Below are positions 1 through 22,716 of a stretch of DNA of 22,716 bases, in pieces (position 1 is the first letter of the stretch; the number at the start of each line of letters is the position of its first letter). Below the pieces are notes generated by a model, which did no database searches, was not told the origin of the DNA, and was given only the letters and a program-made list of their open reading frames with translations. This DNA comes from a virus. The stretch spans positions 1-22,716 of the IMG/VR virus record IMGVR_UViG_3300032316_001083; one strand, written 5' to 3'. The position numbers and the translations under genes are program-made.

Positions 1-3000
1 AGCGCGTCGGGAGCCTCGCCAACGTAGACGTTCGAGTTCCAGTTGACCGCAATGCCACCCCCGCCCGTGGTGACCGTTCGGGCAGGATAGACGTCATCAC
101 TGCGGAAGATGCGGATGCTGTCATTCTGATAGATGAAGTTCGCCGTGGAATTGTCCAAGAACAGGCTTATGGTGGCGGTGTTTATTCTCAAATTGCCAGC
201 GTCCAGGGCGGTGATGCCGCCAAAGAAGTTGCGAATGCCGTCCTCGGTCGACTGGTTGTAAACCCACCACGCATAGAGGGCGGCACCCAGGAAATCCCCG
301 GCCATGCTCAGATTGACATCATCGTTTACATAGTCTGGCGTGAAGCCTGTGACGGTTGATCCGTCGATGCCATAGCTTTCATAAACTGTGTCATTTGCCT
401 GCGAGACCAGGAAGGTGGCGCCGGTTTCGGTGAAGATGCCGGTGGCAGAGACGCCCAGCTTGGCAGTCGCGCCGTCAACGTAGGTCGCCGTCAGCGTGAT
501 GTTCTTGTTGCCGGTGTACAGGAAGTCCTGCGAGAACCCGGGGCTGGCTAGGACATCGTTGTATATCTCGACGTTGTTGGTGGTGTTCACCACCCGCACC
601 CGAGAGCCCGCCAGTAGGTTCGGCGCCGAGATGTTGGCGAACTGCCGCGCCGTCACCCGTGCCCCGAGCGCGCCAATCGTCGTGTTGACCTTGGTGATAA
701 CGATATCCGCCGTGCCGATGTTGGAGATCGTGCCGGTTATCACGCAGTTGGTCATTGTGATGTTAATGCCAAACGGCGCGCTGCTATCGTAGGTCAGATT
801 GCCAGTGATGGTCACGCCCGACAGGTCGGACGGGTCAATCTGCGACACATTCGCCGTGATGGAGGCGTTGTTGAAGTTGTCCGGGATGGTCACCACACCG
901 CTGGTGAACAGCGGGCCAGTGATCGTTGTGCCGGGGCTTAGGGTGTAGTCCGTCCAGATCGAAAGGCTGGTGCCGTCAAATATCCACACGTCGGCCGTGT
1001 TGTTGATCGTGACCGGATAGCTGCCCGCCGAAGGCGATGTACCCGCCTTCGTGATCACTCGCGCGTAGGCGATGCCCTGGTTGGTCGTCTCGTAATAGGC
1101 CGAGTAGTCGTAGAGCTTGTCGTTGTTTTCCAGGACCGTATAGGCGGCCACCGTCGCCTTATTGGCCTGGGTGACAAACAGATCGGTGAGCAGCGTGACC
1201 GTGACGGTCGTGCTTGCCACTGCCGGCAGATGCGTGCCGGTCTGCGCGTCGAAGCCGTAGCGCGCGACCTTGTAGCCCCAGGTGCCGGTCTGCCCCGTCG
1301 TGTCCAGCGTGTAGCTGGTGCCAGAGGAGGCGACATAAGCCACCTCTGCGCCCGCGCCGTCGGTGATATAGACCTGTGACCCAGCCGTCAGGCCGTTGAT
1401 GTTCAGGGACGTGACAGGCCGCGTGGCGACGTTCGCGCCCACCGTGCCGATGGTGGTGCCGCTGGTGCTGATGGTGACCAAGCCCGAGCCGCTGTTGCTC
1501 ACGGTGCCCGTGATCGTGCAGCCGGTGAGCGTGACCGTGATCGGCGTGTTGGTGTTGTAGGTCAGGTTGCCCGTGATCGTGACGCCGGTCAGGTTGGTCG
1601 GGATCGCCTGAGCTACGTTGCCGGTGATCTGCACGCCGCTGGATAGCGAGCCGGACAGGGTGACGTTGCCGGTGATGTTCCCAGCCGTCAGCGCGCCCGT
1701 GACCACCAGCGTGTAGGTGCTGATGAAGCTGGAACCGTTGGAGGTGCTGAATGGGTCGTTTTGGGTCAGATTGGCGAGCAGGCTCAGGCTGTCCTGCACC
1801 GCGCTCCAAACCTCCGCCGCCGGGCGGCTTGCACTCAGTGTGATCGTTGAGGCGCCATAATTGACCGCCACGCCCGTCACGCCGGGCACATAGAGCGGGT
1901 TGCTGTTCGTATCGAGCACTTGCGTCTGCGTGATGGGAATGCTGATTGCGGTCTTGGTGTAGGTGCCGGTCAGGCTGGAGAACGTCCGGCCGGGGAAGCG
2001 CGCAACCAGCCGATAGGGCACCGGGACGGCATCGTAGTTGTACGGCATGGGCACGCTGCCGCTGCTGCTGGTGAGCAGCAGGCTGCTCTGCAAAACAGGT
2101 GTGGCCGGTACAGCGTTAAGATAGCCCGCGATCAGCGTGCCGACCTGTGCGCCGGTAAAGCCGAGTTCTGTTCTGTACACGGCAGGGTCATACGCCGCGT
2201 CAATTGTGACGGGCAGGCGGAGGCTCATCAGATAGCGGCCAGTGACCGCCGTGGTACCCGTGACGCGAAACTGCAGGTCAAGGCCGACCGATGAGCTATA
2301 GCCGGTCAGAGCCGCGCGTGCGGTTTCCAGATCGGCGTTGCTGGTGAACGCCGTCCAGGCGCCCGTGTTCGCAGTGCCCCAGTTCATCATGCGGAACTCG
2401 ACCGTCGTCCCAGCAGGAATGGGGTTGGTGCCAGCGCCTAGGTTGTAGTTGAAATCAAATGCCGTGCCGGTGAAGTTGGTGATGCCCTTCAACGCAAACA
2501 CAGACTTGATGACAACGGCGTCGCCGATGGCCGGATAATAGATACGACCCAGGTTGTCGAGAAGCGCGCCACCGCTAAAGGTGTACATATCAAAGGCGCT
2601 TTGGGCAGAGAAGCTCCCGACATAAACTGAGCCTACAGTCTTGGCTGTGTTTGACAGAACAACAATAGGCTGTACGTCAACCAAGTTTGGGATAATTGAG
2701 GCTGTTGCAGTTGTATTAAAAAGACGATGCGGTCCAGCAACCACATCTAGTTCTAAACCACTCTTTGATGCACCGCCGGTACCTGTTGCTGTGCTTGTAA
2801 TCGTATCAATTAACAGCATACGGAACAGTCCGCCGCTGTTAGTGATAGAGTTACCAAGCAAATAGCTTTGAGCGGCCGCGACCACACGAGGGTTTGCAAC
2901 AGATATAAAGGCAATAATGCTATTCAATCCAGCATCACTTACAATAGCGGTTGGCTGTAACGACCCAGCGACGGCTGGATATCCTTTGTTATGACACACA

Positions 3001-4844
3001 ACGCTTTCGCACGATGAGTCGATACTGATAAAAGGCCCTCTTGAAACAATACCGCCGCCCCAAACTTGCAAGCCTCTAAACGTGCTATTCACTGTGCTTT
3101 GTATTGTCGTAAATGTTGAGCCATCAGTGGAGCTATTGCTGTTGCTGTTAGGCAGGGACGCAATAAAAATGTTCTTTATGTCAATGTTGGTGGTAGCGGC
3201 GATAACAAACCCGCCACCAGCCATATAAAGCCCATCTACAGGAGTGGCGCATTTAATAGTTGTAAACGCAAAGCTACGAAATCCGACTGTGGTCGCCGCT
3301 CCATTCCGACCCCATTGCCTAGAGTGCAAATTGCTGATTATCTGGGCGTTCTGGATGTTGGTGCAGTTATAGGTTGTTCCGGCGGTGTTGCCTGGGTAGT
3401 TATTGTTGGCATGAACGCTAAAAATGCTGCCACTTCCAAGCATGGAGGTAAGGTTTATTGTAGCAGCAACTGCTGTGGGAGCTTGCCAAGAAGCACCCAG
3501 CACGCTCAATGTATCTAAATCATACGTCCCGGCAGAGTTACCAATGAATGTTGCAAAACACCCAAAGTCCTTGAGTGTTAGGTCGGCGTAGTTTTGAAAG
3601 TCATTTCTAAACCGCATGCCCGTGCTGCAAACTTGCAAGTCAATAGTGCCGCTAGGGTTGCAGCTAAAACCAGCGTTGTTGACCGTGTTAAGGGGCGAAG
3701 GAATCCAATAGACCAGCGTGCCGATTGGAAAACTTGCCTGGGCTGTTGTGCCGTACTGACCCCTAAGCTGTGAGGTCGCACTGACCACCGCACCCGCACG
3801 GGTCAAATAGTGAATTCGCTCAATCGTTGAGCCGCTGACCAGGAGGAAAGAGCCAATCGACTGGTTGACGTTGATGGCGGCGTTGGTCGTGGGTCCAATC
3901 GCTGTGGCCAGCGTGAACGCCTGCGCGCCCGTGCCCGTGATGGCGGTTGCCAGCGTGGTCTGCTGGACTTGGGAATTGAAGTGGATGTTGGGAACGCGCA
4001 CCCGAGCGCCGGTTGGAATCTTCGTGCCGTTCGTGCCGTCACCCACCCGCACTGCGGTCGTGAGCGGATTGAAGAACAACACCTTGCCAACTTCGCTGCC
4101 GCCGACCTGAGCCGGAGCGATCAACGAACCGCTGCGAATGATGTAGCTGGTGCCAGCACCTATCACGCCGCCTGTGTAGGTCGTGCCATCTAGCTCCTGA
4201 ATGGTCATAGATGTCGTAGAGGCGACAGCACTGATCACAAAGTCACGGGCGATGCTTGGCAGCTTGAATGGCAGGCCGATGTTCGAGCTTAGGAAGTTTG
4301 TGCCCGTGCCGGTAACTGCGCCACCAGCCGTGACCGCCACCGTTCCCGTGGTGGCGTTTGGCGCATTGAAGGCATAGGTGTTGACCGTGCCGCCCGTCAC
4401 ATCTTCGGGGATGGCCTGCCACACTTCCCAGACATTCGTGCCGCTGCCAGTCTCGACCTGAATCATCGTCGGGTAGTCGATTGCCACGCCGCCGATGTTG
4501 TTGGCGCTAAACAGGACTTGGTTGTTCGCGCCCGTGCTGGTGCCGACAGTGATCCAGCCGCCCCTGACTTGCAGCACGGCATTCTGCTGGACGGTAAACC
4601 CACCGTTGTTCAAGGCGGCAGAACTCAAACCGTTCTGCATGAAGAACTCAAGGTTCAGCGGAACGGTCATGCTGGCGTTGCTGACCTCGATGCGCCCAGT
4701 GCCAAGCGCCTGGATGAGCGTGGGACGGATTGACCATTGGGAGTTGATCGTCAGCGTCACGCCGTCAAGCACGTTGAGCGTGTCGCCCAGGGCGTAGGTG
4801 ACCGCATTGATATTGCTGCTGGTGGTGACGTCAATTGTTGCCAT
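1..4844 (-). CDS. Giant tail fibre / receptor-binding protein, C-terminus beyond window
   Basis: The frame is open from an ATG at 4844 (GGAG eight bases upstream) to the left edge, at least 1614 codons; I spot-checked it near 3800, 3400, 2650, 2050, 1330 and 30. The protein is Thr/Ser/Gly/Asn/Val-rich with few charged residues, as in beta-rich phage fibres. Residues 1-300 look like an attachment region. Residues ~380-750 are coded by lower-GC DNA. From ~1060 there are TGN(I/V)T-type beta repeats and a duplicated module (GVTITGNLTY at 1087-1096 and 1343-1352). The last visible part has a WWVYNQST...FFGG...DDVYP...GGGGIAVNW pattern that I recall from the ends of other phage fibres, so the stop may lie not far outside. 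It is the last gene of the late arm in view and probably binds the host surface. No enzymatic motif was recognised; a depolymerase spike is possible. Confidence 0.85.
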   Translation of the reverse strand, partial: MATIDVTTSSNINAVTYALGDTLNVLDGVTLTINSQWSIRPTLIQALGTGRIEVSNASMTVPLNLEFFMQNGLSSAALNNGGFTVQQNAVLQVRGGWITVGTSTGANNQVLFSANNIGGVAIDYPTMIQVETGSGTNVWEVWQAIPEDVTGGTVNTYAFNAPNATTGTVAVTAGGAVTGTGTNFLSSNIGLPFKLPSIARDFVISAVASTTSMTIQELDGTTYTGGVIGAGTSYIIRSGSLIAPAQVGGSEVGKVLFFNPLTTAVRVGDGTNGTKIPTGARVRVPNIHFNSQVQQTTLATAITGTGAQAFTLATAIGPTTNAAINVNQSIGSFLLVSGSTIERIHYLTRAGAVVSATSQLRGQYGTTAQASFPIGTLVYWIPSPLNTVNNAGFSCNPSGTIDLQVCSTGMRFRNDFQNYADLTLKDFGCFATFIGNSAGTYDLDTLSVLGASWQAPTAVAATINLTSMLGSGSIFSVHANNNYPGNTAGTTYNCTNIQNAQIISNLHSRQWGRNGAATTVGFRSFAFTTIKCATPVDGLYMAGGGFVIAATTNIDIKNIFIASLPNSNSNSSTDGSTFTTIQSTVNSTFRGLQVWGGGIVSRGPFISIDSSCESVVCHNKGYPAVAGSLQPTAIVSDAGLNSIIAFISVANPRVVAAAQSYLLGNSITNSGGLFRMLLIDTITSTATGTGGASKSGLELDVVAGPHRLFNTTATASIIPNLVDVQPIVVLSNTAKTVGSVYVGSFSAQSAFDMYTFSGGALLDNLGRIYYPAIGDAVVIKSVFALKGITNFTGTAFDFNYNLGAGTNPIPAGTTVEFRMMNWGTANTGAWTAFTSNADLETARAALTGYSSSVGLDLQFRVTGTTAVTGRYLMSLRLPVTIDAAYDPAVYRTELGFTGAQVGTLIAGYLNAVPATPVLQSSLLLTSSSGSVPMPYNYDAVPVPYRLVARFPGRTFSSLTGTYTKTAISIPITQTQVLDTNSNPLYVPGVTGVAVNYGASTITLSASRPAAEVWSAVQDSLSLLANLTQNDPFSTSNGSSFISTYTLVVTGALTAGNITGNVTLSGSLSSGVQITGNVAQAIPTNLTGVTITGNLTYNTNTPITVTLTGCTITGTVSNSGSGLVTISTSGTTIGTVGANVATRPVTSLNINGLTAGSQVYITDGAGAEVAYVASSGTSYTLDTTGQTGTWGYKVARYGFDAQTGTHLPAVASTTVTVTLLTDLFVTQANKATVAAYTVLENNDKLYDYSAYYETTNQGIAYARVITKAGTSPSAGSYPVTINNTADVWIFDGTSLSIWTDYTLSPGTTITGPLFTSGVVTIPDNFNNASITANVSQIDPSDLSGVTITGNLTYDSSAPFGINITMTNCVITGTISNIGTADIVITKVNTTIGALGARVTARQFANISAPNLLAGSRVRVVNTTNNVEIYNDVLASPGFSQDFLYTGNKNITLTATYVDGATAKLGVSATGIFTETGATFLVSQANDTVYESYGIDGSTVTGFTPDYVNDDVNLSMAGDFLGAALYAWWVYNQSTEDGIRNFFGGITALDAGNLRINTATISLFLDNSTANFIYQNDSIRIFRSDDVYPARTVTTGGGGIAVNWNSNVYVGEAPDA
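561..818 (-). repeat. Fibre module, second copy (intragenic repeat)
   Basis: Codes for fibre residues 1343-1428, which align with residues 1087-1170 over their whole length: GVTITGNLTY, then a TNCVITGTIS stretch, TTIGALGA, and a final NNVEIY that matches AEVAY of the other copy. The in-frame offset at GVTITGNLTY is exactly 768 bases (256 codons); a two-residue length difference lies inside. The DNA has diverged, so this is an old duplication. Confidence 0.7.
1335..1586 (-). repeat. Fibre module, first copy (intragenic repeat)
   Basis: Codes for fibre residues 1087-1170 and is the partner of the copy at 561-818. Shared landmarks are GVTITGNLTY, a T(G/N)C(T/V)ITGT(V/I)SN segment and TTIG(T/A)(V/L)GA. 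It is probably a beta-rich structural or binding repeat, duplicated once within the gene. Confidence 0.7.
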
Positions 4845-6555: not shown

Positions 6556-8106
6556 TTAGGCTGCGCTCCAGACCCAGCGGCGCTTGCCGCAGTCGTAAAT
6601 CCGCCGAGCCCCCATGCAATAGGTCATCTCGGCCTCGCTACGCGGGTCGTAGGCAGGGGCAAAAACGTCCTCGCTCCCGTGCTCGCGCAAACGCGCGGGG
6701 ATCGCGCGGCGTTGGTAGTGAGATTTGGGCCGCAACCCGGTTTTTGGACTCCACACCGCATAGTCAGGGTCGATTTCCGCTTCAAGGCGGAAGCCTAGGC
6801 GCAGGTACATGCCGCCGGCGAACAAACGATTGTCCGAGAAAGACTTGACTAGGCTGGGCCGCACCTCGTCGAGAAATGCACGGAAAAGGCGCCCAGCGCC
6901 GCCAGCGACGGTGACGCGGGTTGCGTAGCGAGCCAGCGTCCATTCGCGTGGGCCGCCGGTAGTGCCGCGATCGTTCGCACCCAGCGTGAAGCGCATGCAG
7001 GCAACGAGCTTACCTTTCCAGTAGAGACCCCAATGTCGGCCGTACCCGGCGCCCCCCTGCGGGTGCCAAGCATCAAAAAAACGTGCGGCCTCATGAAGAG
7101 GGACGGGCGCCAGGTCGCACTTGCGGGCCATCAAACGCCCGCGTGACGCGCCCAGGGCATTGCGTATCAAGCGCAGCATTTGCCGCCGCCGCAGAGTCCA
7201 ATCGGTCTCCCAGACTGTCAGCAGGCGGATGCCGGCGGACTCGCAGGCACGATGTTTCTCGGCGTGGCGGCGACGTCCGGCTCGCTCTTCGTCAACTGAG
7301 CCGTGGCTATGCCAAAACATACCGCAGTACTCGATGGCCAGGCGCCGAGACGGGACGTAGACGTCCAACTCCTTTGGGGCAACAACCGAACGGTCGCGCT
7401 GCACAACGGGCGCAAAGATACGCACAAAGCGCGCGATCTCATCCTCGGCACGGGACAGGTGGTGCGAACAACGCGGGCAACCATGACCGCGCCGAAGGTG
7501 GTGCATTGGCGTCTGTTCAAAGGGGCCGTGCTGCGGGCAAATGATCGTCACCCGCTCACGCGCGTTCCGGTACTCAACCGTCGCGTAGTCGTAAGCATCT
7601 CCGTGGACGGCTCGGGCGTCGGCCTCAAAGGCCGCAGCGGCGGAGGCGATCTTGGTCGCGGCCGTGCGGGCGGCGGCATCAAGAACGGCGTGCCGACGCC
7701 CACGCGTAAAGGTAGCGCAGGTCGGGCAGCCCTGGCGCTTGTGAAGGTGATTGCCAGGAAGGATGGTGAAGTCGCCGTGCTCACGGCAGGTTACAACGAC
7801 CTTTGTTGCGTGGGTCGCGTAAACGGCGCGGTCGTAGGCAAAACGGTCGCCGTGCGCTTCGCGCGCCGCTACCAAGAAATCTTCTTGTGTGAGGCGTTGT
7901 TTGGCGCGACGAACAGCGTCGCCGCAGGCAGGGCAGAGCGATGCGCCGCGCCGCAACTGTGCGGGGTATTGGCGGAACTCGCCGTGGGCAGGGCATCGGA
8001 TGCCGGTGACTGGCTTGAGCGCCCCGTGGTAGGCGGCGCGGGAAAAATCGTAGCGTTCAAGGACTGCCGGCGGCACCTTGGTTAGTAGCTCGTCAATCGT
8101 AAGCAT
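6556..8106 (-). CDS. Putative free-standing homing endonuclease: three zinc ribbons + Vsr/EDxHD-like nuclease + GNAT-like tail
   Basis: The ATG at 8106 has a perfect GGAGGT eight bases upstream; upstream extension of the frame has no start as good. The protein is 516 residues. Three DUF723-like repeats each carry CxxH...CxxC: C38/H41/C58/C61, C107/H110/C127/C130 and C190/H193/C210/C213, and should bind zinc and DNA. Residues ~217-305 look like the Vsr-related EDxHD nuclease fold: E221/E223, LDVY with D248, LAIEYCGMFWH with E259 and H266, then TVWETDW. Residues ~325-516 (WHPQGGAGYGRHWGLYWKGK, then HYQRR and GARRIYDCGKRRW) match the GNAT-like region I recall from phage homing endonucleases. It interrupts the capsid-to-tail gene order, as mobile nuclease genes do. 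A defence or packaging nuclease is less likely. Confidence 0.85.
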   Translation of the reverse strand: MLTIDELLTKVPPAVLERYDFSRAAYHGALKPVTGIRCPAHGEFRQYPAQLRRGASLCPACGDAVRRAKQRLTQEDFLVAAREAHGDRFAYDRAVYATHATKVVVTCREHGDFTILPGNHLHKRQGCPTCATFTRGRRHAVLDAAARTAATKIASAAAAFEADARAVHGDAYDYATVEYRNARERVTIICPQHGPFEQTPMHHLRRGHGCPRCSHHLSRAEDEIARFVRIFAPVVQRDRSVVAPKELDVYVPSRRLAIEYCGMFWHSHGSVDEERAGRRRHAEKHRACESAGIRLLTVWETDWTLRRRQMLRLIRNALGASRGRLMARKCDLAPVPLHEAARFFDAWHPQGGAGYGRHWGLYWKGKLVACMRFTLGANDRGTTGGPREWTLARYATRVTVAGGAGRLFRAFLDEVRPSLVKSFSDNRLFAGGMYLRLGFRLEAEIDPDYAVWSPKTGLRPKSHYQRRAIPARLREHGSEDVFAPAYDPRSEAEMTYCMGARRIYDCGKRRWVWSAA

Positions 8107-8136
8107 ACAAACCCACCTCCTTGATTCGCATGGAGG

Positions 8137-8164
8137 CATATAGCACAAAAAATCAGTTTGGAAA
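8137..8164 (-). promoter_or_regulatory. Candidate promoter for endonuclease/tail genes
   Basis: On the minus strand TTTCCA (8159-8164, 4/6 to the sigma-70 -35 consensus) is followed after 16 bases by TATATG (8137-8142), preceded by TGC, which makes an extended -10. It lies in an AT-rich patch just after the capsid terminator and about 30 bases before the endonuclease start. The -35 overlaps the inverted repeat at 8151-8171. The match is modest. Confidence 0.35.
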
Positions 8165-8171
8165 ACTGATT
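8151..8171. promoter_or_regulatory. 9-bp inverted repeat (operator-like or weak terminator)
   Basis: The arms AATCAGTTT (8151-8159) and AAACTGATT (8163-8171) are perfect with a three-base loop. On the minus strand the second arm runs into a T tract, so it may act as a second, weak terminator behind the strong one. It also covers the candidate -35, so it could be an operator. TTTGGAAAA is directly repeated at 8157-8165 and 8170-8178. Confidence 0.5.
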
Positions 8172-8200
8172 TGGAAAAATTTAAGGCAGTGCGCCAATCA

Positions 8201-8231
8201 AAAAAAAGCCCCAGATTTCTCTGGGGCTTTT
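8201..8231 (-). terminator. Rho-independent terminator after the major capsid gene
   Basis: On the minus strand the stem GCCCCAGA/TCTGGGGC has a GAAA loop and is followed by seven Ts; flanking A/T bases extend the pairing to about 12 bp. It starts 24 bases after the capsid stop, the expected place to end the highly expressed head mRNA. The opposite strand also has a short T run, so some bidirectional action is possible. Confidence 0.9.
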
Positions 8232-8255
8232 CCTTTAAACTCAAAGAGTTGGAGG

Positions 8256-9170
8256 CTACACTCCGGGAGTCCCGTACACCGTGCGCGGGTCGGTCCAACC
8301 GAAAACGTAACGTTCGGTCGCCTTGTAGCGCATAGAGTCAGTCTCGAAGTCGCCCTCCATGCTCTTCTCGAGCGGGCGGCGCATCAGAAGCTTCAGGCCT
8401 TCCGGCGCGTCCGTCTGGATCCACCAAGCGGTGGTCGAGGTCAGACGCGACAGGTTGGCCTGGCCGCCGGACAGCAGCCCCATGGAGTTCACGGGGTTGA
8501 TGTCGTTGTCGGCCGTGCCAGTACGCAGCACGCTCTTCAGCAGCACTTCCGCCTGGAAGACGTTAGACGGCGAGACCACCAGCTTCTTCGGCTGCAGACG
8601 GATGCGCTTGCCGTTGTTGTCAACGGCGTTGCGGATCTGGATCAGCAGCTGCTCAAGCGACGTCTGCGAGAGGTTCGCAGCAGTCGTCAGCTGGTTGCTG
8701 AACGTGCCGTTGACGATCGGGTGGTTGTTGGCGACGAGCGAGACGCCGTCACCGCCAAGGAACGCGCCGTTAAACGCGCGGTTCAGGATGTTCGCACCCA
8801 GCGTTTCCTTGGTCTCGATCAGCGACTGAGCAAGGTGGCGGGCGTAGGTCTGCCCGATCTTGATGTGGTCGCCGTCTTCAACCAGCACCTTCGTCAGCGC
8901 GAAGGCGAGGCCGTAGACCTTGTAGAGGTAGCGCTGGATGAACAGCACACCGCCCGACTGGTAGGTGACCGGGGTGCCGTCCGGCAGCTCAGGAGCCGCG
9001 CCGAAGCCGTACAGAACCGGCTCTTCATGGTAGTTGCGCGGGGTGCCCCGGCTCTCCTTGAAGACCTGCTTGTACTCATCAGCACGCTGCTCGTAGATGC
9101 CATCGAACTCCTCAGAGATGATGGGTTCAACGATCGACCGGAACTGGGTCGAGTTCATCGGCATTGCCAT
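8256..9170 (-). CDS. Major capsid protein (304 aa)
   Basis: The size, position (after scaffold and two head genes, directly before a strong terminator) and sequence fit a phage major capsid protein. The start MAMPMNSTQF follows GAGGAGGGCC. An N-terminal helix-rich arm (residues ~8-45, IVEPIISEEFDGIYEQRADE) leads to a body with RYLYKVYGLAFALTKVLVED and GQTYARHLAQSLIETKETLG. A long loop has NNHPIVNGTFSNQ, and LQPKKLVVSPSNVFQAEVLL is typical of capsid proteins that use arrays of such loops. The C-terminal FETDSMRYKATERYVFGWTDPR pattern matches the ends of HK97-fold coats. The HK97 fold is inferred from family knowledge; no structure can be computed here. It forms the procapsid shell with the scaffold and perhaps the GroES-like partner. 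Confidence 0.88.
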   Translation of the reverse strand: MAMPMNSTQFRSIVEPIISEEFDGIYEQRADEYKQVFKESRGTPRNYHEEPVLYGFGAAPELPDGTPVTYQSGGVLFIQRYLYKVYGLAFALTKVLVEDGDHIKIGQTYARHLAQSLIETKETLGANILNRAFNGAFLGGDGVSLVANNHPIVNGTFSNQLTTAANLSQTSLEQLLIQIRNAVDNNGKRIRLQPKKLVVSPSNVFQAEVLLKSVLRTGTADNDINPVNSMGLLSGGQANLSRLTSTTAWWIQTDAPEGLKLLMRRPLEKSMEGDFETDSMRYKATERYVFGWTDPRTVYGTPGV

Positions 9171-17231: not shown

Positions 17232-18704
17232 TCACGCAGCATAGGGGTTCCCGCGCCTCTTCGGCTGCCAGTAATCCTCGATTTCGCGGGGATTAGCAAC
17301 TGAAACCCCCATCTTGTCCACAACTACCCGCAGGGCCTGGGTCGCGCTGTCGACCAGATCGTCGTGGGCGATGCTCTTCTCGCCGCTGAAGCTGCAGATC
17401 TGCTCGATGAGGGGGTCGGCCCAGGACCGGGGCTGGCCGGGTCGCTTGTCGCTCTCGACAACCCAGACCATGCCGTTCGCGAAGAGGTGGCTGACCATGT
17501 GCAGGCGCTCGAGCTTGCTGGCGCGGCCGGGGTTGTACGCCACCGCCTGCAGGCCCTCGCGGGCGAGCATCTGGCGCAGGCTGATGCCGCTGCCCTTGTC
17601 CTCGATCACGCACAGGTCGGGCTTGCGGCCGGAGTTGCCGAGCAGGGGCGCGCCGTAGATCGGAGCGATGAGGGGCTTGTCGCGATCGCCGTACTGGACG
17701 GCCATCTCGCGCTTCGTGCGCTCGATGAGGTCGGGCATGCCGAGGCGCTCCTGCCAGCAGTCGAGCAGGAGGACGCCGTCCTGGCGGTCTTCGCGGAAGA
17801 GGCCCCAGACGCTGCAGCCGGTGAAGTCGGCGTCGCCGGTCTTGGAGTTGCGCGTGGCCTCGGTGAAGGCGGTGTCGAGCGAGAGCACGATCAGGTCGAA
17901 CACCGGCAGGGGCTTGTCGGCCGGCCAGAGCTGGATCCAGGAGCGCTTGATGATGCCCTGGTCGGCCGGGTCGAGCACCTCGGCGTGGATCTCCTGGCGG
18001 CCGAGGGCGGTGCCTTCGTACTGCAGGATCTGCTCGCGGAAGGTGGGCGCCAGGTTCTTGAGGTTGGCGTAGGTCGAGGCGCGGGAGACGGTGACGTCCT
18101 TGCCTTCGCGCTTGAGCAGCCGGGTGATGATGGGCTTGGGCTTGGGGGTGGTGGAGATCACGATGCGCGGCCGATCGCCCAGGCGCATGCCGAACATGAG
18201 CATGTCGAAGGCTTCCTCGGCTCGCTGCCAGGCGGCGAGCTCGTCGAGCCATCCGCCGTGGAACTGTGGGCCTCGGAAGCGCTCGGGGTTCTCGGCGGAG
18301 ATCCCCTTGATCAGGGATCCGTTGCGGAGCCGCAGCTCGACGTCGGTCTTGTTGTAGAGCGCGCCGCTGGAAGTGGGTTCGATCAGCTCCTGCGGGATGA
18401 CGGCGAGCAGGCCGCTCTCGCCCTCGAAGCAGGTGCCCACGAGGTCGCCGTAGGTGGGGGCGGAGACGAGCCATCGGGTGTTGGGGTTGGACCATGCCCA
18501 CCAGCCGATGGTCTCGGCCGAGGTTCTGGTTTTGCCTGCGCCTCGACCTGCGAGGAGGAGCCAGAGTGACCACCAGTCGCCGGCGGGGACGAGCTGGTGG
18601 TCGAGGGCTTTGTCCATCCACTCGGCGTGCCAGAGGAGGCCTCGGGCGACGTCGTTGGGGAGTTTGCCGATGAGTTCGATTTCGGCTGGCGTGAGCGCGC
18701 TCAC
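17232..18704 (-). CDS. terL: Terminase large subunit (490 aa)
   Basis: All landmarks of a packaging motor are present. The ATPase has AGRGAGKT at residues 52-59 (Walker A), WLDE with D154/E155 (Walker B plus catalytic Glu) and STTPKP at 184-189 (coupling motif). The RNase-H-like nuclease has LSLDTAF with D277, VIEDKGSG with E368/D369, and HDDLVDS with D448/D449. The length is usual for the family. A GTG at 18704 starts 12 bases after the small-subunit stop with only a weak SD, which suggests coupling. It cuts concatemeric DNA and drives it into the procapsid through the portal encoded two genes downstream. Confidence 0.96.
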   Translation of the reverse strand: MSALTPAEIELIGKLPNDVARGLLWHAEWMDKALDHQLVPAGDWWSLWLLLAGRGAGKTRTSAETIGWWAWSNPNTRWLVSAPTYGDLVGTCFEGESGLLAVIPQELIEPTSSGALYNKTDVELRLRNGSLIKGISAENPERFRGPQFHGGWLDELAAWQRAEEAFDMLMFGMRLGDRPRIVISTTPKPKPIITRLLKREGKDVTVSRASTYANLKNLAPTFREQILQYEGTALGRQEIHAEVLDPADQGIIKRSWIQLWPADKPLPVFDLIVLSLDTAFTEATRNSKTGDADFTGCSVWGLFREDRQDGVLLLDCWQERLGMPDLIERTKREMAVQYGDRDKPLIAPIYGAPLLGNSGRKPDLCVIEDKGSGISLRQMLAREGLQAVAYNPGRASKLERLHMVSHLFANGMVWVVESDKRPGQPRSWADPLIEQICSFSGEKSIAHDDLVDSATQALRVVVDKMGVSVANPREIEDYWQPKRRGNPYAA

Positions 18705-19733: not shown

Positions 19734-19793
19734 CATATAAGAGCCGAATATTTGCCCGGAAAATGGGATATAACACCCCCCTGCGTTGCCTAG
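19734..19793 (+). repeat. Tandem repeat, degenerate partial copy (copy 0)
   Basis: Starts CATATAAGAGCCGAATATTT and aligns with the second half of the two clear copies (CATAT-A-AAGCC, then AATAT/GGATAT, then a GGGATAT/AGGGCAT block and a CCCTGCG/CCCTTGCG block). It begins 100 bases before the same point in copy 1. The first half is missing or eroded. Confidence 0.55.
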
Positions 19794-19891
19794 GGAATAG
19801 TCCGTATCCCCGGCCTTCACATCATTTTTTCTACATATGAAAGCCAAATATTCTACGTTAAATAGAGCATCTCCGCCTTTGCGTGGGCCGT
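19794..19891 (+). repeat. Tandem ~98-bp repeat, copy 1
   Basis: Begins GGAATAGTCCGTATCCC, then shares CATTTTTTCTACATAT, AAAGCC, AAATAG.GCATCTCCGCC and TTGCG.G with copy 2 at an offset of exactly 98 bases. The copies abut directly. Shared blocks are separated by variable 5-10 base spacers, as in arrays of protein-binding sites. Confidence 0.85.
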
Positions 19892-19991
19892 GGAATAGTC
19901 CGTATCCCTGGCTCTCGTCTCATTTTTTCTACATATAAAAGCCGGATATTATCCGCCAAATAGGGCATCTCCGCCCTTGCGGGGACCCCGT
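19892..19991 (+). repeat. Tandem ~98-bp repeat, copy 2
   Basis: Same blocks as copy 1. This copy also carries two perfect small palindromes: CGGATA-T-TATCCG (19943-19955) and CGGGG-A-CCCCG (19980-19990). The second sits just upstream of the start of the rightward arm and within a weak candidate promoter, so it may be the operator copy. A weaker CTCATTTT-like echo continues to ~20024. Confidence 0.85.
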
Positions 19992-20039
19992 AAATGCCCA
20001 TATTGTCGCTGACTACCTCATTTTGTGGAGATGAAAAAA

Positions 20040-20501
20040 ATGGCTGGACACATACAGAAGCAAGCTCTGATGGCCTCGGGCGCTGCCGAGCTGAAGGCGT
20101 TGCTGCTGAGTTGCGGGTGGTCTGTGCGCCAGGTTGCGCTGCGCGTTGGGGCTTCGGAGGCTGCTGGGGCGCGTTGGGTTGCAGGGGCCGAGGCGCCTCC
20201 GCCGGAGTTGATGTCTTGGCTGCGGGCTGTTGCGAGTGCGCTGGAGGGGGTGCCGGCCCCGCCAATGCCGGCGGTTCGTCGCGCTCGGGGACGTCCTCGG
20301 GGCGGCAGCTACGTGCTGGAGATACTGCGCTGGATTGGGAGGCCGGCGTCGGTGCGGGAGATGTGCGCCGGTGCGCCGCACTTTGAGCGGGAGGTTGCCG
20401 CTATCACCATGCGCCAGAACTTGGAGCGCCTAGTTGCGACGGGGCAGGTGCTGAAGTTGGATGGGAGCCCGATCACCTATGCGCTACCCGGCCAAAAATA
20501 A
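20040..20501 (+). CDS. DNA-binding regulator: HTH + AT-hook-like linker + winged-helix-like end (153 aa)
   Basis: The ATG at 20040 has GGAG nine bases upstream; an ATG at 20031 is too close to that SD. Residues ~15-62 (LLLSCGWSVRQVALRVGASE, then RWVAGAEAPPPELMSWL) fit an XRE-type helix-turn-helix. Residues 82-88 (ARGRPRG) match the core of an AT-hook, which binds the minor groove of A/T DNA. Residues ~90-153 (YVLEILRWIGRPASVREMC, then ITMRQNLERLVATGQVLKLD) look like a winged helix. It is the first gene of the rightward arm and faces the repeat-rich region, so autoregulation and control of the divergent arm are plausible. The domain calls are by eye; no repressor or activator role can be chosen. 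Confidence 0.75.
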   Translation: MAGHIQKQALMASGAAELKALLLSCGWSVRQVALRVGASEAAGARWVAGAEAPPPELMSWLRAVASALEGVPAPPMPAVRRARGRPRGGSYVLEILRWIGRPASVREMCAGAPHFEREVAAITMRQNLERLVATGQVLKLDGSPITYALPGQK

Positions 20502-20599: not shown

Positions 20600-20953
20600 A
20601 TGCTCGCTTCTGATTCTGATATCCGCCCTGGCAAGAACCGGGTGAACGTCCGGCCCAGTGAAGATCAGGCGTCGAACATGGTGATCCCGGCCGAGGCTCA
20701 GGGTTACATAGACTGGGGTCAGGTGGACGAGAACATGACCTGCCGCCAGGTGGCGGTTCTGCTGACGGTGCGCGCCAATCCTGGCGTGTCGACGGGTGCT
20801 GTGGCTGCGCTGTTGGGTGTGCCTCAGCCGGTCGTGACGCGTGCGGTCGACAAGATGTTCAGCTTGGATTTGCTGCACCGGCTGCCTCACGCGGCCGATC
20901 GGCGTCTGGTGGAGCTGATGCCGGGTCCGATGCCGAAGAAGGGGGGTCGCTGA
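20600..20953 (+). CDS. MarR-like winged-helix protein (117 aa)
   Basis: The ATG at 20600 has TGGAG eight bases upstream. Residues 1-42 are polar. Residues ~46-110 (MTCRQVAVLLTVRANPGVST, then AVAALLGVPQPVVTRAVDKM, DLLHRLPHAADRRLVEL) follow the MarR pattern: helix-turn-helix, then a wing containing DRR. MarR proteins are usually 140-160 residues with dimerising helices at both ends; this one lacks the long C-terminal helix, so it is a reduced form. It is the second regulator of the arm. A 98-base gap (20502-20599) before it has no gene and no convincing promoter. Target unknown. Confidence 0.82.
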   Translation: MLASDSDIRPGKNRVNVRPSEDQASNMVIPAEAQGYIDWGQVDENMTCRQVAVLLTVRANPGVSTGAVAALLGVPQPVVTRAVDKMFSLDLLHRLPHAADRRLVELMPGPMPKKGGR

Positions 20954-21333: not shown

Positions 21334-21548
21334 CCTTTCGTGCAGACTTCCTGGCGGATGCCCCGGCTCACGTCCGGGGCACCAGCCTCTGGTCCTGGCA
21401 GCAGGCGATCGAGGGCAGCCGCAAGGCTGCGGCGGGCGGTGACCTGGGCCACGCTGCGTGGCTGCTGGCCCGCGCTGCTGCGGTGCGGCGTCAGATGGCA
21501 AAGATCTTGGCGTGCCCGCGTGCGCGCCAGGGGCTGGTGGCGCCATGA
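21330..21548 (+). CDS. Small hypothetical protein (72 aa)
   Basis: A GTG start at 21330 overlaps the upstream stop (GTGA), a typical coupled junction. The product is Ala/Arg-rich and helical (SWQQAIEGSRKAAAGGDLGH, then LLARAAAVRRQMAKILACPR), basic at its end. Nothing in it identifies a function. The stop again overlaps the next start (ATGA). Confidence 0.65.
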   Translation: MTFRADFLADAPAHVRGTSLWSWQQAIEGSRKAAAGGDLGHAAWLLARAAAVRRQMAKILACPRARQGLVAP

Positions 21549-21667
21549 ACCGGGACACGCGCGTGGTGCTGGTGGCATTCGCGATCGGGGCCATGTTCGG
21601 CCCCGCTCTGGTTTGGATTTTGGGTCTCACGCTGGCGGCGTGGGCCGGTTTGTTGGGAGGACACTGA
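21545..21667 (+). CDS. Tiny membrane protein (40 aa)
   Basis: The ATG at 21545 shares ATGA with the preceding stop. After MNRDTRV the chain is almost entirely hydrophobic (VLVAFAIGAMFGPALVWILG, then LTLAAWAGLLGGH), enough for one long or two short membrane helices. The length and hydrophobicity would suit a small inner-membrane peptide or a pinholin-like protein. Its place in the early regulatory arm, with no endolysin beside it, makes a lysis role unproven. Confidence 0.6.
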   Translation: MNRDTRVVLVAFAIGAMFGPALVWILGLTLAAWAGLLGGH

Positions 21668-21668
21668 C

Positions 21669-22049
21669 ATGGCGACGAAGATCACCCGTGATATGTTCAG
21701 CACCCGCTCGTTTCAAGTCATCACCGGCGTGATGAAATTCGAGACGCTGGAGCAGGTTGCTGAATGCTCTGAGTGGGATCTGCGCCGAGTACCCAACTTT
21801 GGTCTCAAGTCGCTGAAAGAGGTCAAGGAGGTACTGGAGGCGCATGGCCTTTATCTCGCCTCGAAGTCGAGCTGGAATCGTCCTGAGCTGAGTTCAGCCG
21901 CGCAGGCTGGGGCCGGGTATCTCGACATGCTGAGGGCTCTTCGGGTGATTGCCGAGTTCCCGTTGGCTGAGAGCACATCGCCGGACAGCGCGGCGGTCTA
22001 CATGCGGGCCCTCGCCCGCCACATCCTGGGCAGCGGAAGGGAGGCCTGA
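21669..22049 (+). CDS. RNA polymerase alpha-CTD-like protein (126 aa)
   Basis: The ATG at 21669 follows GGGAGGACACTGAC. Residues 11-72 align with the C-terminal domain of bacterial RpoA: STRSF.V...MKFETLEQVAECSEWDL, then VPNFGLKSLKEVKEVLEAHG, then L and a W.RP end like the alpha-CTD W.P. DNA-contact positions of E. coli alpha are largely kept: R265 is R13, G296 is G45, K298 is K47, S299 is S48, E302 is E51; N268 is Q16. One residue is inserted between the halves. No N-terminal dimerisation or assembly domain exists, so it is not an RNA polymerase subunit. A further ~55 residues (YLDMLRALRVIAEFPL onward) are helical and unassigned. It may bind UP-element-like DNA or host regulators to redirect transcription. 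Confidence 0.85.
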   Translation: MATKITRDMFSTRSFQVITGVMKFETLEQVAECSEWDLRRVPNFGLKSLKEVKEVLEAHGLYLASKSSWNRPELSSAAQAGAGYLDMLRALRVIAEFPLAESTSPDSAAVYMRALARHILGSGREA

Positions 22050-22050
22050 C

Positions 22051-22353
22051 ATGGTCACGATGATGGTCGACGTGGAAGTCGAAGAGGTGCTGCAGCAGAT
22101 CGAGACGAGCCAGCTGGTGCATGAGTTGCACATGCGAGTGCTGGTCGGAGACCCCATTGCCGAAAAGGCGTTTAAGTATTCGGGTCAGATGATCATGCAA
22201 ACGCTTGAGCACCTGCGTGCGGGCTCCATTGGAGAGGCGATCGAGGTGCTGACGCGAGGGGCGAGCAGCAATACGGCATCTGACGTATTGAAGGACTACG
22301 AGAAGGCGAAGACGGGCGAGCATCCGTTCCTGCGGTTTGTGAAGGACGAGTGA
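22051..22353 (+). CDS. Hypothetical protein (100 aa)
   Basis: The ATG at 22051 has GGAGG about six bases upstream. The product is acidic and helical (MVDVEVEEVLQQIETSQLVH, later MQTLEHLRAGSIGEAIEVLT). It has no zinc, nuclease or membrane motif. It follows the alpha-CTD-like gene by one base and its TGA overlaps the next ATG, so they are probably co-translated. Function unknown. Confidence 0.75.
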   Translation: MVTMMVDVEVEEVLQQIETSQLVHELHMRVLVGDPIAEKAFKYSGQMIMQTLEHLRAGSIGEAIEVLTRGASSNTASDVLKDYEKAKTGEHPFLRFVKDE

Positions 22354-22539: not shown

Positions 22540-22716
22540 ATGGCTGACCTGTATCTGGACAGCATCGAGGTCTGTCGTCGGTTGTCGGCTGCCTGCAAGG
22601 CGGCCGGCAGCCAGAAGCTGTGGGCGGAGCAGCATGGCGTGTCGGCCGCATACGTCAGTGACGTGATCAATGCGCTGCGGCCGCCGGGCCAGTCGATCTT
22701 GGATGGGCTTGGGCTG
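22540..22716 (+). CDS. Cro/XRE-like helix-turn-helix protein, C-terminus beyond window
   Basis: The ATG at 22540 lies four bases after the upstream stop; 59 codons are visible before the window ends. CKAAGSQKLWAEQHGVSAAY then VSDVINALRPPGQSILDGLG is a compact helix-turn-helix known from small XRE/Cro-type proteins of proteobacterial phages and prophages (AGSQ.AWA..HGVS.AYVSDVL...R.PG..IL.ALGL). Only a few residues are probably missing. It would bind DNA, perhaps as another early regulator. Confidence 0.8.
   Translation, partial: MADLYLDSIEVCRRLSAACKAAGSQKLWAEQHGVSAAYVSDVINALRPPGQSILDGLGL

Follow-up and report, generated by a model that had tools for sequence, protein, structure and literature searches.

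The alpha subunit of bacterial RNA polymerase (RpoA) carries a C-terminal domain (alpha-CTD) in which R265 is crucial to UP-element contact (PMC2988021). Several phage proteins act on the host copy of this domain, among them T4 Alt and ModA, LUZ19 Rac, P2 Ogr and G1 gp67 (PMC2988021, PMC7552054). Alt and ModA modify R265 (PMC2988021), while Rac cuts the alpha-CTD off, releasing it as a fragment within the cell (PMC7552054). The known tactics by which phages disable the host domain are modification, cutting and binding (PMC2988021, PMC7552054). The face that contacts DNA can also be engaged by protein, as in the Caulobacter DriD complex, where the DNA-contact residues of the alpha-CTD bind DriD instead of DNA (PMC12340889). 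A free alpha-CTD made by the phage itself would be a departure from these tactics. Among open-licence papers we found no functional study of a stand-alone phage alpha-CTD, in keeping with the remark in a first-pass annotation of the locus described here that no role is settled.

The locus lies in a stretch of viral DNA of 22,716 nucleotides, hereafter the window. ORF P0001 (21669..22049, + strand) encodes a stand-alone alpha-CTD protein of 126 aa, with an ATG start and a TGA stop. A Shine-Dalgarno-like GGGAGGA (21655..21661, +) was read from the sequence 7 bases 5' of the ATG. The sole close relative found is an orthologue on contig L002 (IMGVR 3300043466_003394, 8001-8378), which is 77% identical, occupies the same place, uses the same start and is preceded by the same motif at the same spacing. 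Comparison of the pair gave dN/dS values of 0.37 for the whole gene and 0.30 for the domain (Nei-Gojobori count, rough with two sequences), values that indicate purifying selection. Relatives were absent from INPHARED and from a first scan of bacterial genomes, and a PHROGs search assigned no family. A second scan of bacterial genomes returned RpoA genes, mostly alphaproteobacterial, with no stand-alone relative among them. Patchy presence in close relatives, described below, could point to a fragment of host rpoA that was captured and serves no function, but the frame is open, the ribosome-binding site is conserved, dN/dS is 0.37, the domain core is near-identical in two phages and the class is recurrent, all of which make such a fragment scarcely credible.

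The alpha-CTD domain comprises residues 1-70 (21669..21878, +), as supported by its Pfam match, AlphaFold2 and VIA-align. Residues 10-57 match PF03118 (RNA_pol_A_CTD) with 30.8 bits and an E-value of 2.5e-7 against a cut-off of 23.8, and the L002 orthologue scores 26.8 bits. This profile search had been proposed in the first-pass annotation, whose assignment of the first ~70 residues to the RpoA C-terminal domain it bears out, with no other family matching better. All NCBIfam matches are to RpoA models; full-length RpoA models score far under their cut-offs, and the ORF starts with the CTD and has no alpha-NTD. Sequence matches in the PDB are RpoA chains in 44 of 45 cases, the exception being an AI-designed TIM barrel, and the best is the Caulobacter alpha-CTD 9zum. 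An AlphaFold2 model was built with 41 aligned sequences and has a mean pLDDT of 87, rising to about 95 in the domain (94-98 for residues 1-60). Superposition of this model by VIA-align gave Z 10.5 and rmsd 1.8 over 65 residues with 9zum_E, Z 10.3 with the E. coli alpha-CTD 1lb2, and Z 9-11 with alpha-CTD structures generally. Foldseek assigned a probability of 1.0 with only modest E-values (0.003 and up). The predicted domain has the compact helical fold with a helix-hairpin-helix that the superposition had been proposed to look for. Profile, sequence and predicted structure thus identify the domain as a true homologue of the host RpoA domain; the earlier label of a stand-alone alpha-CTD "mimic" was right as to architecture and understates the relationship.

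Helix-hairpin-helix folds are found outside RpoA, and P0001 could be a general DNA-binding protein of that kind, engaged in replication, repair or packaging, with its alpha-CTD likeness reflecting origin only. RAD51-type N-terminal domains resemble the fold (Z about 8, 12% identity) and PF14520 (HHH_5) matches weakly, but RpoA is the best match by profile, sequence and structure with a wide margin, the neighbouring genes are regulators, and fusions in sister phages bear HTH domains; we regard this alternative as quite improbable. An HTH profile search of P0001 itself found none, and the protein is not an HTH plus alpha-CTD fusion. In a tree of domains the only well-supported group united the window and L002 (0.998), with viral and cellular domains intermixed at deeper levels. 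The nearest cellular relatives of the domain in a motif-seeded search are mostly alphaproteobacterial RpoA, which fits an alphaproteobacterial host, and the phage probably infects such a bacterium.

Alignment to E. coli alpha placed R13, N43, G45, K47, S48 and E51 at R265, N294, G296, K298, S299 and E302, respectively, and Q16 and V17 at N268 and C269. The retention of R265, G296, K298, S299 and E302 and the replacement of N268 by Gln agree with the earlier reading of the sequence, and five of the seven residues of the 265 determinant (R265, N268, C269, G296, K298, S299 and E302) are kept. The L002 orthologue has His at position 268, and position 269 is Val/Ile in the pair. N268 is invariant across the 47 cellular domains that were compared, and the net charge of the P0001 domain is only +1. 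The changes at N268 and C269 may make DNA affinity weaker or altered. On the side of partner contacts, the 261 determinant (D259/E261) is lost, with Arg or Pro and Met in its place, and position 287 is Trp; P0001 does keep E286, and its position 288 is acidic.

A flexible linker of about residues 72-80 (21882..21908, +; pLDDT <50 at 72-78) follows the domain and is the most divergent stretch between P0001 and its orthologue. Beyond it, AlphaFold2 predicts a two-helix module (21912..22046, +) with helices at residues 82-96 and 108-121, the separate helical C-terminal part noted at first pass. Residues 83-124 of this module are identical in L002 at 36 of 42 positions. The module searched alone matched no named family and gave no significant phage match, and the amphipathicity of its helices was not above that of shuffles.

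The window terminase shares 52% identity with its counterparts in the Caulobacter phages GB2A, RLK and KcrB, and the phage is related to this group. In GB2A (62 kb), the genes for replication are found to the right of the packaging end. The window has its terminase small subunit at the head of a leftward block, from which a rightward block diverges across an A/T-richer intergenic region (GC 0.49 versus 0.62 for the window). From the GB2A layout, the rightward block is probably expressed early. Its first ORF (20025..20501, +, 158 aa), kept in L002 and in sister contig L080, has a weak HTH match (PF13384 HTH_23, E 0.0017, below cut-off). A MarR-type winged-helix regulator of 117 aa (20600..20953, +; PF12802, 36.7 bits, above cut-off) is kept in sister phages. 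A small ORF with a hydrophobic stretch (21545..21667, +), read from the sequence and found in L002, L078, L079 and L080, is the upstream neighbour of the site at which P0001 is inserted. The downstream neighbour (22051..22353, +) encodes 100 aa without an assigned function. An HTH-like ORF (22540..22716, +) is truncated by the window end; its intact copy at L002:9027-9269 matches HTH_3 with E 0.0066, below cut-off. The earlier placement of the gene in a block of regulators is supported by these HTH- and MarR-type neighbours.

The intergenic region before the block contains a tandem 98-bp repeat in two copies, 80% alike (19782..19977, +), the core of which is absent from six sister contigs; the copies are possibly promoters or binding sites. 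A search before the block for sigma-70-type promoters found none and no convincing UP signal either, the one UP-like match having 3 mismatches. The use of host RNA polymerase is presumed: a search of 18 relatives matched no T7-type polymerase, but its controls did not match either. Other features of these genomes were noted in passing. An HNH/homing endonuclease (6556-8298, -; phrog_559, E 3.9e-88) sits amid structural genes of the window, and a 1614-residue ORF (3-4844, -) that runs off the window edge has ITGNLTY/ITGTVSN-like repeats, had no PHROG match at 0.001 and is possibly a fibre or beta-helix protein. At its Walker A motif, the large terminase of L002 (2853-5429, -) is interrupted in frame by ~370 aa that look intein-like (ending HN before TRTS) and are missing from the window terminase (17232-18704).

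Comparison with sister phages shows P0001 to be accessory within the rightward block. In L078 and L079, whose terminases are 96% and 95% identical, respectively, the gene is absent and the small hydrophobic ORF directly precedes the 100-aa gene. In L080 (IMGVR 3300044825_001916), a 63-kb contig with a terminase identity of 94%, there is no alpha-CTD gene at the site of P0001, and one position downstream of that site lies a gene for an HTH domain joined to a divergent alpha-CTD (4131-4682, -). AlphaFold2 predicts both domains of its product with pLDDT >90. The second domain resembles the alpha-CTD (Z 8.2, 28% identity), shares 27% identity with the P0001 domain and has a borderline Pfam score of 23.3-24.4 bits; it has Gln at 268 and has lost K298 and S299. 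The HTH domain shows most structural likeness to sigma region 4, with Z 8.6 to the -35-binding domain of an ECF sigma, and to further HTH proteins. Values of Z near 8 are common among HTH domains, so that its sigma-4 likeness need not mean descent from sigma region 4. In the structure 3n97, a sigma-4 domain and an alpha-CTD jointly read -35 and UP DNA. In two terminase relatives that are more remote, L112 and L116, an alpha-CTD gene is likewise present (42.5 and 53.5 bits) and runs on the other strand from the terminase. It thus seems that this phage group has acquired alpha-CTD genes on more than one occasion.

IMG/VR was surveyed in one motif-seeded scan, using an alignment of four alpha-CTDs and the seed PNFG[LR]KSL. 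The scan returned 65 loci with 56 distinct domains and a median protein length of 140 aa, and PF03118 was present in 58 of 58 proteins scanned (E 0.01). Host rpoA contamination was ruled out, with full-length RpoA at none of the 65 loci and 13 of 28 contigs matching one terminase family. INPHARED matches to a cellular alpha-CTD were excluded, since most of them resemble host rpoA genes in records labelled as phage. A match on Yoonia plasmid pBS5-3-2 was also rejected, being a full second rpoA and not a stand-alone domain (L003:15259-16428, 389 aa); this gene is missing from the PLSDB gene table. P0001 belongs to the surveyed class, being a small protein of a phage that has a single PF03118 domain and lacks an alpha-NTD. 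Extensions among the 56 are mainly C-terminal in 24, mainly N-terminal in 22, on both sides in 4 and almost lacking in 6, and several of the phage proteins match HTH profiles. A faecal phage scaffold (L005:3365-4363) encodes an alpha-CTD protein with, by eye, HTH-like and sigma-4-like regions at its N-terminus. The survey, together with several database annotations, confirms the earlier statement that alpha-CTD-like fragments occur in other phages, and suggests that stand-alone alpha-CTD genes are widespread, in dozens of phages.

Residue conservation in this set must be read with the seed in mind, which forces N294, G296, K298 and S299 in most members and biases their conservation there. R265, N268 and E302 lie outside the seed, with a small residual bias as the confirmation query carries R265. 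In an alignment of 64 domains, 62 have a residue at position 265, and in 60 of these it is Arg (entropy 0.40 bits); E302 is retained by 54 of the 64 and N268 by 49. Entropy is 2.49 and 2.71 bits at flanking positions 264 and 266, and 2.39, 2.38, 3.37 and 3.50 bits at the sigma/activator-contact positions 259, 261, 287 and 317. The near-invariance of R265 makes contact with DNA a likelier shared function than the binding of partners alone, with the proviso that some proteins, DriD among them, bind the same face (PMC12340889). The proposal that the protein tethers to UP elements gains from R265 being near-invariant across unrelated phage alpha-CTDs and loses from the change of N268. A free alpha-CTD might instead sequester host or rival-phage activators, or sigma region 4, and silence activator-dependent host promoters with no DNA binding. 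An alpha-CTD with no NTD would compete for such partners, P0001 retains E286 and the acidic residue at 288, and DriD shows that a partner can occupy the DNA-contact face (PMC12340889). A decoy should, however, preserve the activator faces, yet these vary far more than R265 across phage alpha-CTDs, and P0001 has lost the 261 determinant and has Trp at 287; we consider this explanation unlikely.

We favour the reading that P0001 is an alpha-CTD free of RNA polymerase which would bind A/T-rich DNA upstream of promoters in trans and thereby redirect host transcription, and we put the probability of this reading at roughly one half. As it lacks the alpha-NTD, the protein cannot assemble into RNA polymerase and must act in trans. 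We infer that the domain would grip the minor groove of A/T-rich, UP-element-like upstream DNA through its retained R265 determinant, with the C-terminal hairpin as a putative dimeriser or tether to a phage or host regulator. P0001 would compete with or replace the polymerase's own alpha-CTDs, and transcription could be shifted from host to phage promoters. This reading is favoured by the PF03118 match and alpha-CTD fold, the near-invariance of R265, the position in a regulator block divergent from the terminase, purifying selection, and the joining of other phage alpha-CTDs to HTH domains, sigma-4-like in L080. Against it stand the N268 and C269 changes, the net charge of +1, the DriD precedent and the poor UP/promoter signal. 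The sequence would fit repression of host promoters, help to phage promoters or decoy action alike. The protein is small, and the single mutant R13A could separate action on DNA from action on partners.

A further role would be that of a shield, in which P0001 is a surrogate target for host or rival-phage enzymes that modify or cut the alpha-CTD, or for a defence system that senses damage to this domain. Phages do attack the domain, as with T4 Alt and ModA (PMC2988021) and LUZ19 Rac (PMC7552054), no residue outside the search seed is better conserved than R265, and the gene is accessory. Fusions to HTH and sigma-4-like domains would nonetheless be unexpected for bait, and we judge this role very improbable. 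We know of no alpha-CTD-modifying or -cutting enzyme in this host group. Returning to promoter binding in trans, it is tentatively hypothesized, and we would lean against it as it stands, that many unrelated phage lineages have repeatedly taken nothing but promoter-reading parts of the host polymerase, the alpha-CTD and at times a sigma-4-like HTH with it, to block or re-address host promoters polymerase-free. If true, this would be a general, hitherto undescribed route of host transcription takeover.

Among known proteins, the RpoA CTD (9zum, 1lb2, 3n97) shares with P0001 its fold, length, R265, N294, G296, K298, S299 and E302. Unlike RpoA, P0001 has no alpha-NTD, has Gln for N268 and Val for C269, has lost the 261 determinant and bears an extra two-helix C-terminal module. 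The L080 protein is of the same lineage and block and also has Gln at 268, but differs in its N-terminal HTH, its domain identity of 27% and its insertion one gene downstream. Ruegeria phage vB_RpoS-V16 gp23 (L004:7932-8798) resembles P0001 in its N-terminal alpha-CTD and in its block with HTH genes, whereas its alpha-CTD is fused to a MazG-like pyrophosphatase (phrog_5658); relatives of gp23 in L074-L076 match from residue 126 onward only and have no alpha-CTD. Phage proteins auto-annotated as "RNA polymerase, alpha subunit, C-terminal" include BFVD A0A6J7WD60 and A0A6J5MNY7 and Rhodococcus phage Finch A0A2P1JY10, and cultured examples are a Bacillus phage Goe8 protein annotated "RNA polymerase subunit alpha" and the alpha-CTD protein gp26 of Microbacterium phage Mazun. 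Like P0001, all of these are small and combine a single alpha-CTD with an extension that varies; the extension is N-terminal in Goe8 and Mazun, and the C-terminal module of P0001 was not found in any of these proteins. Alt, ModA, Rac, Ogr and gp67 modify, cut, bind or block an alpha-CTD and, unlike P0001, none of them is one. Stand-alone phage alpha-CTDs are thus already auto-annotated in databases, and P0001 adds a member to this functionally unstudied class.
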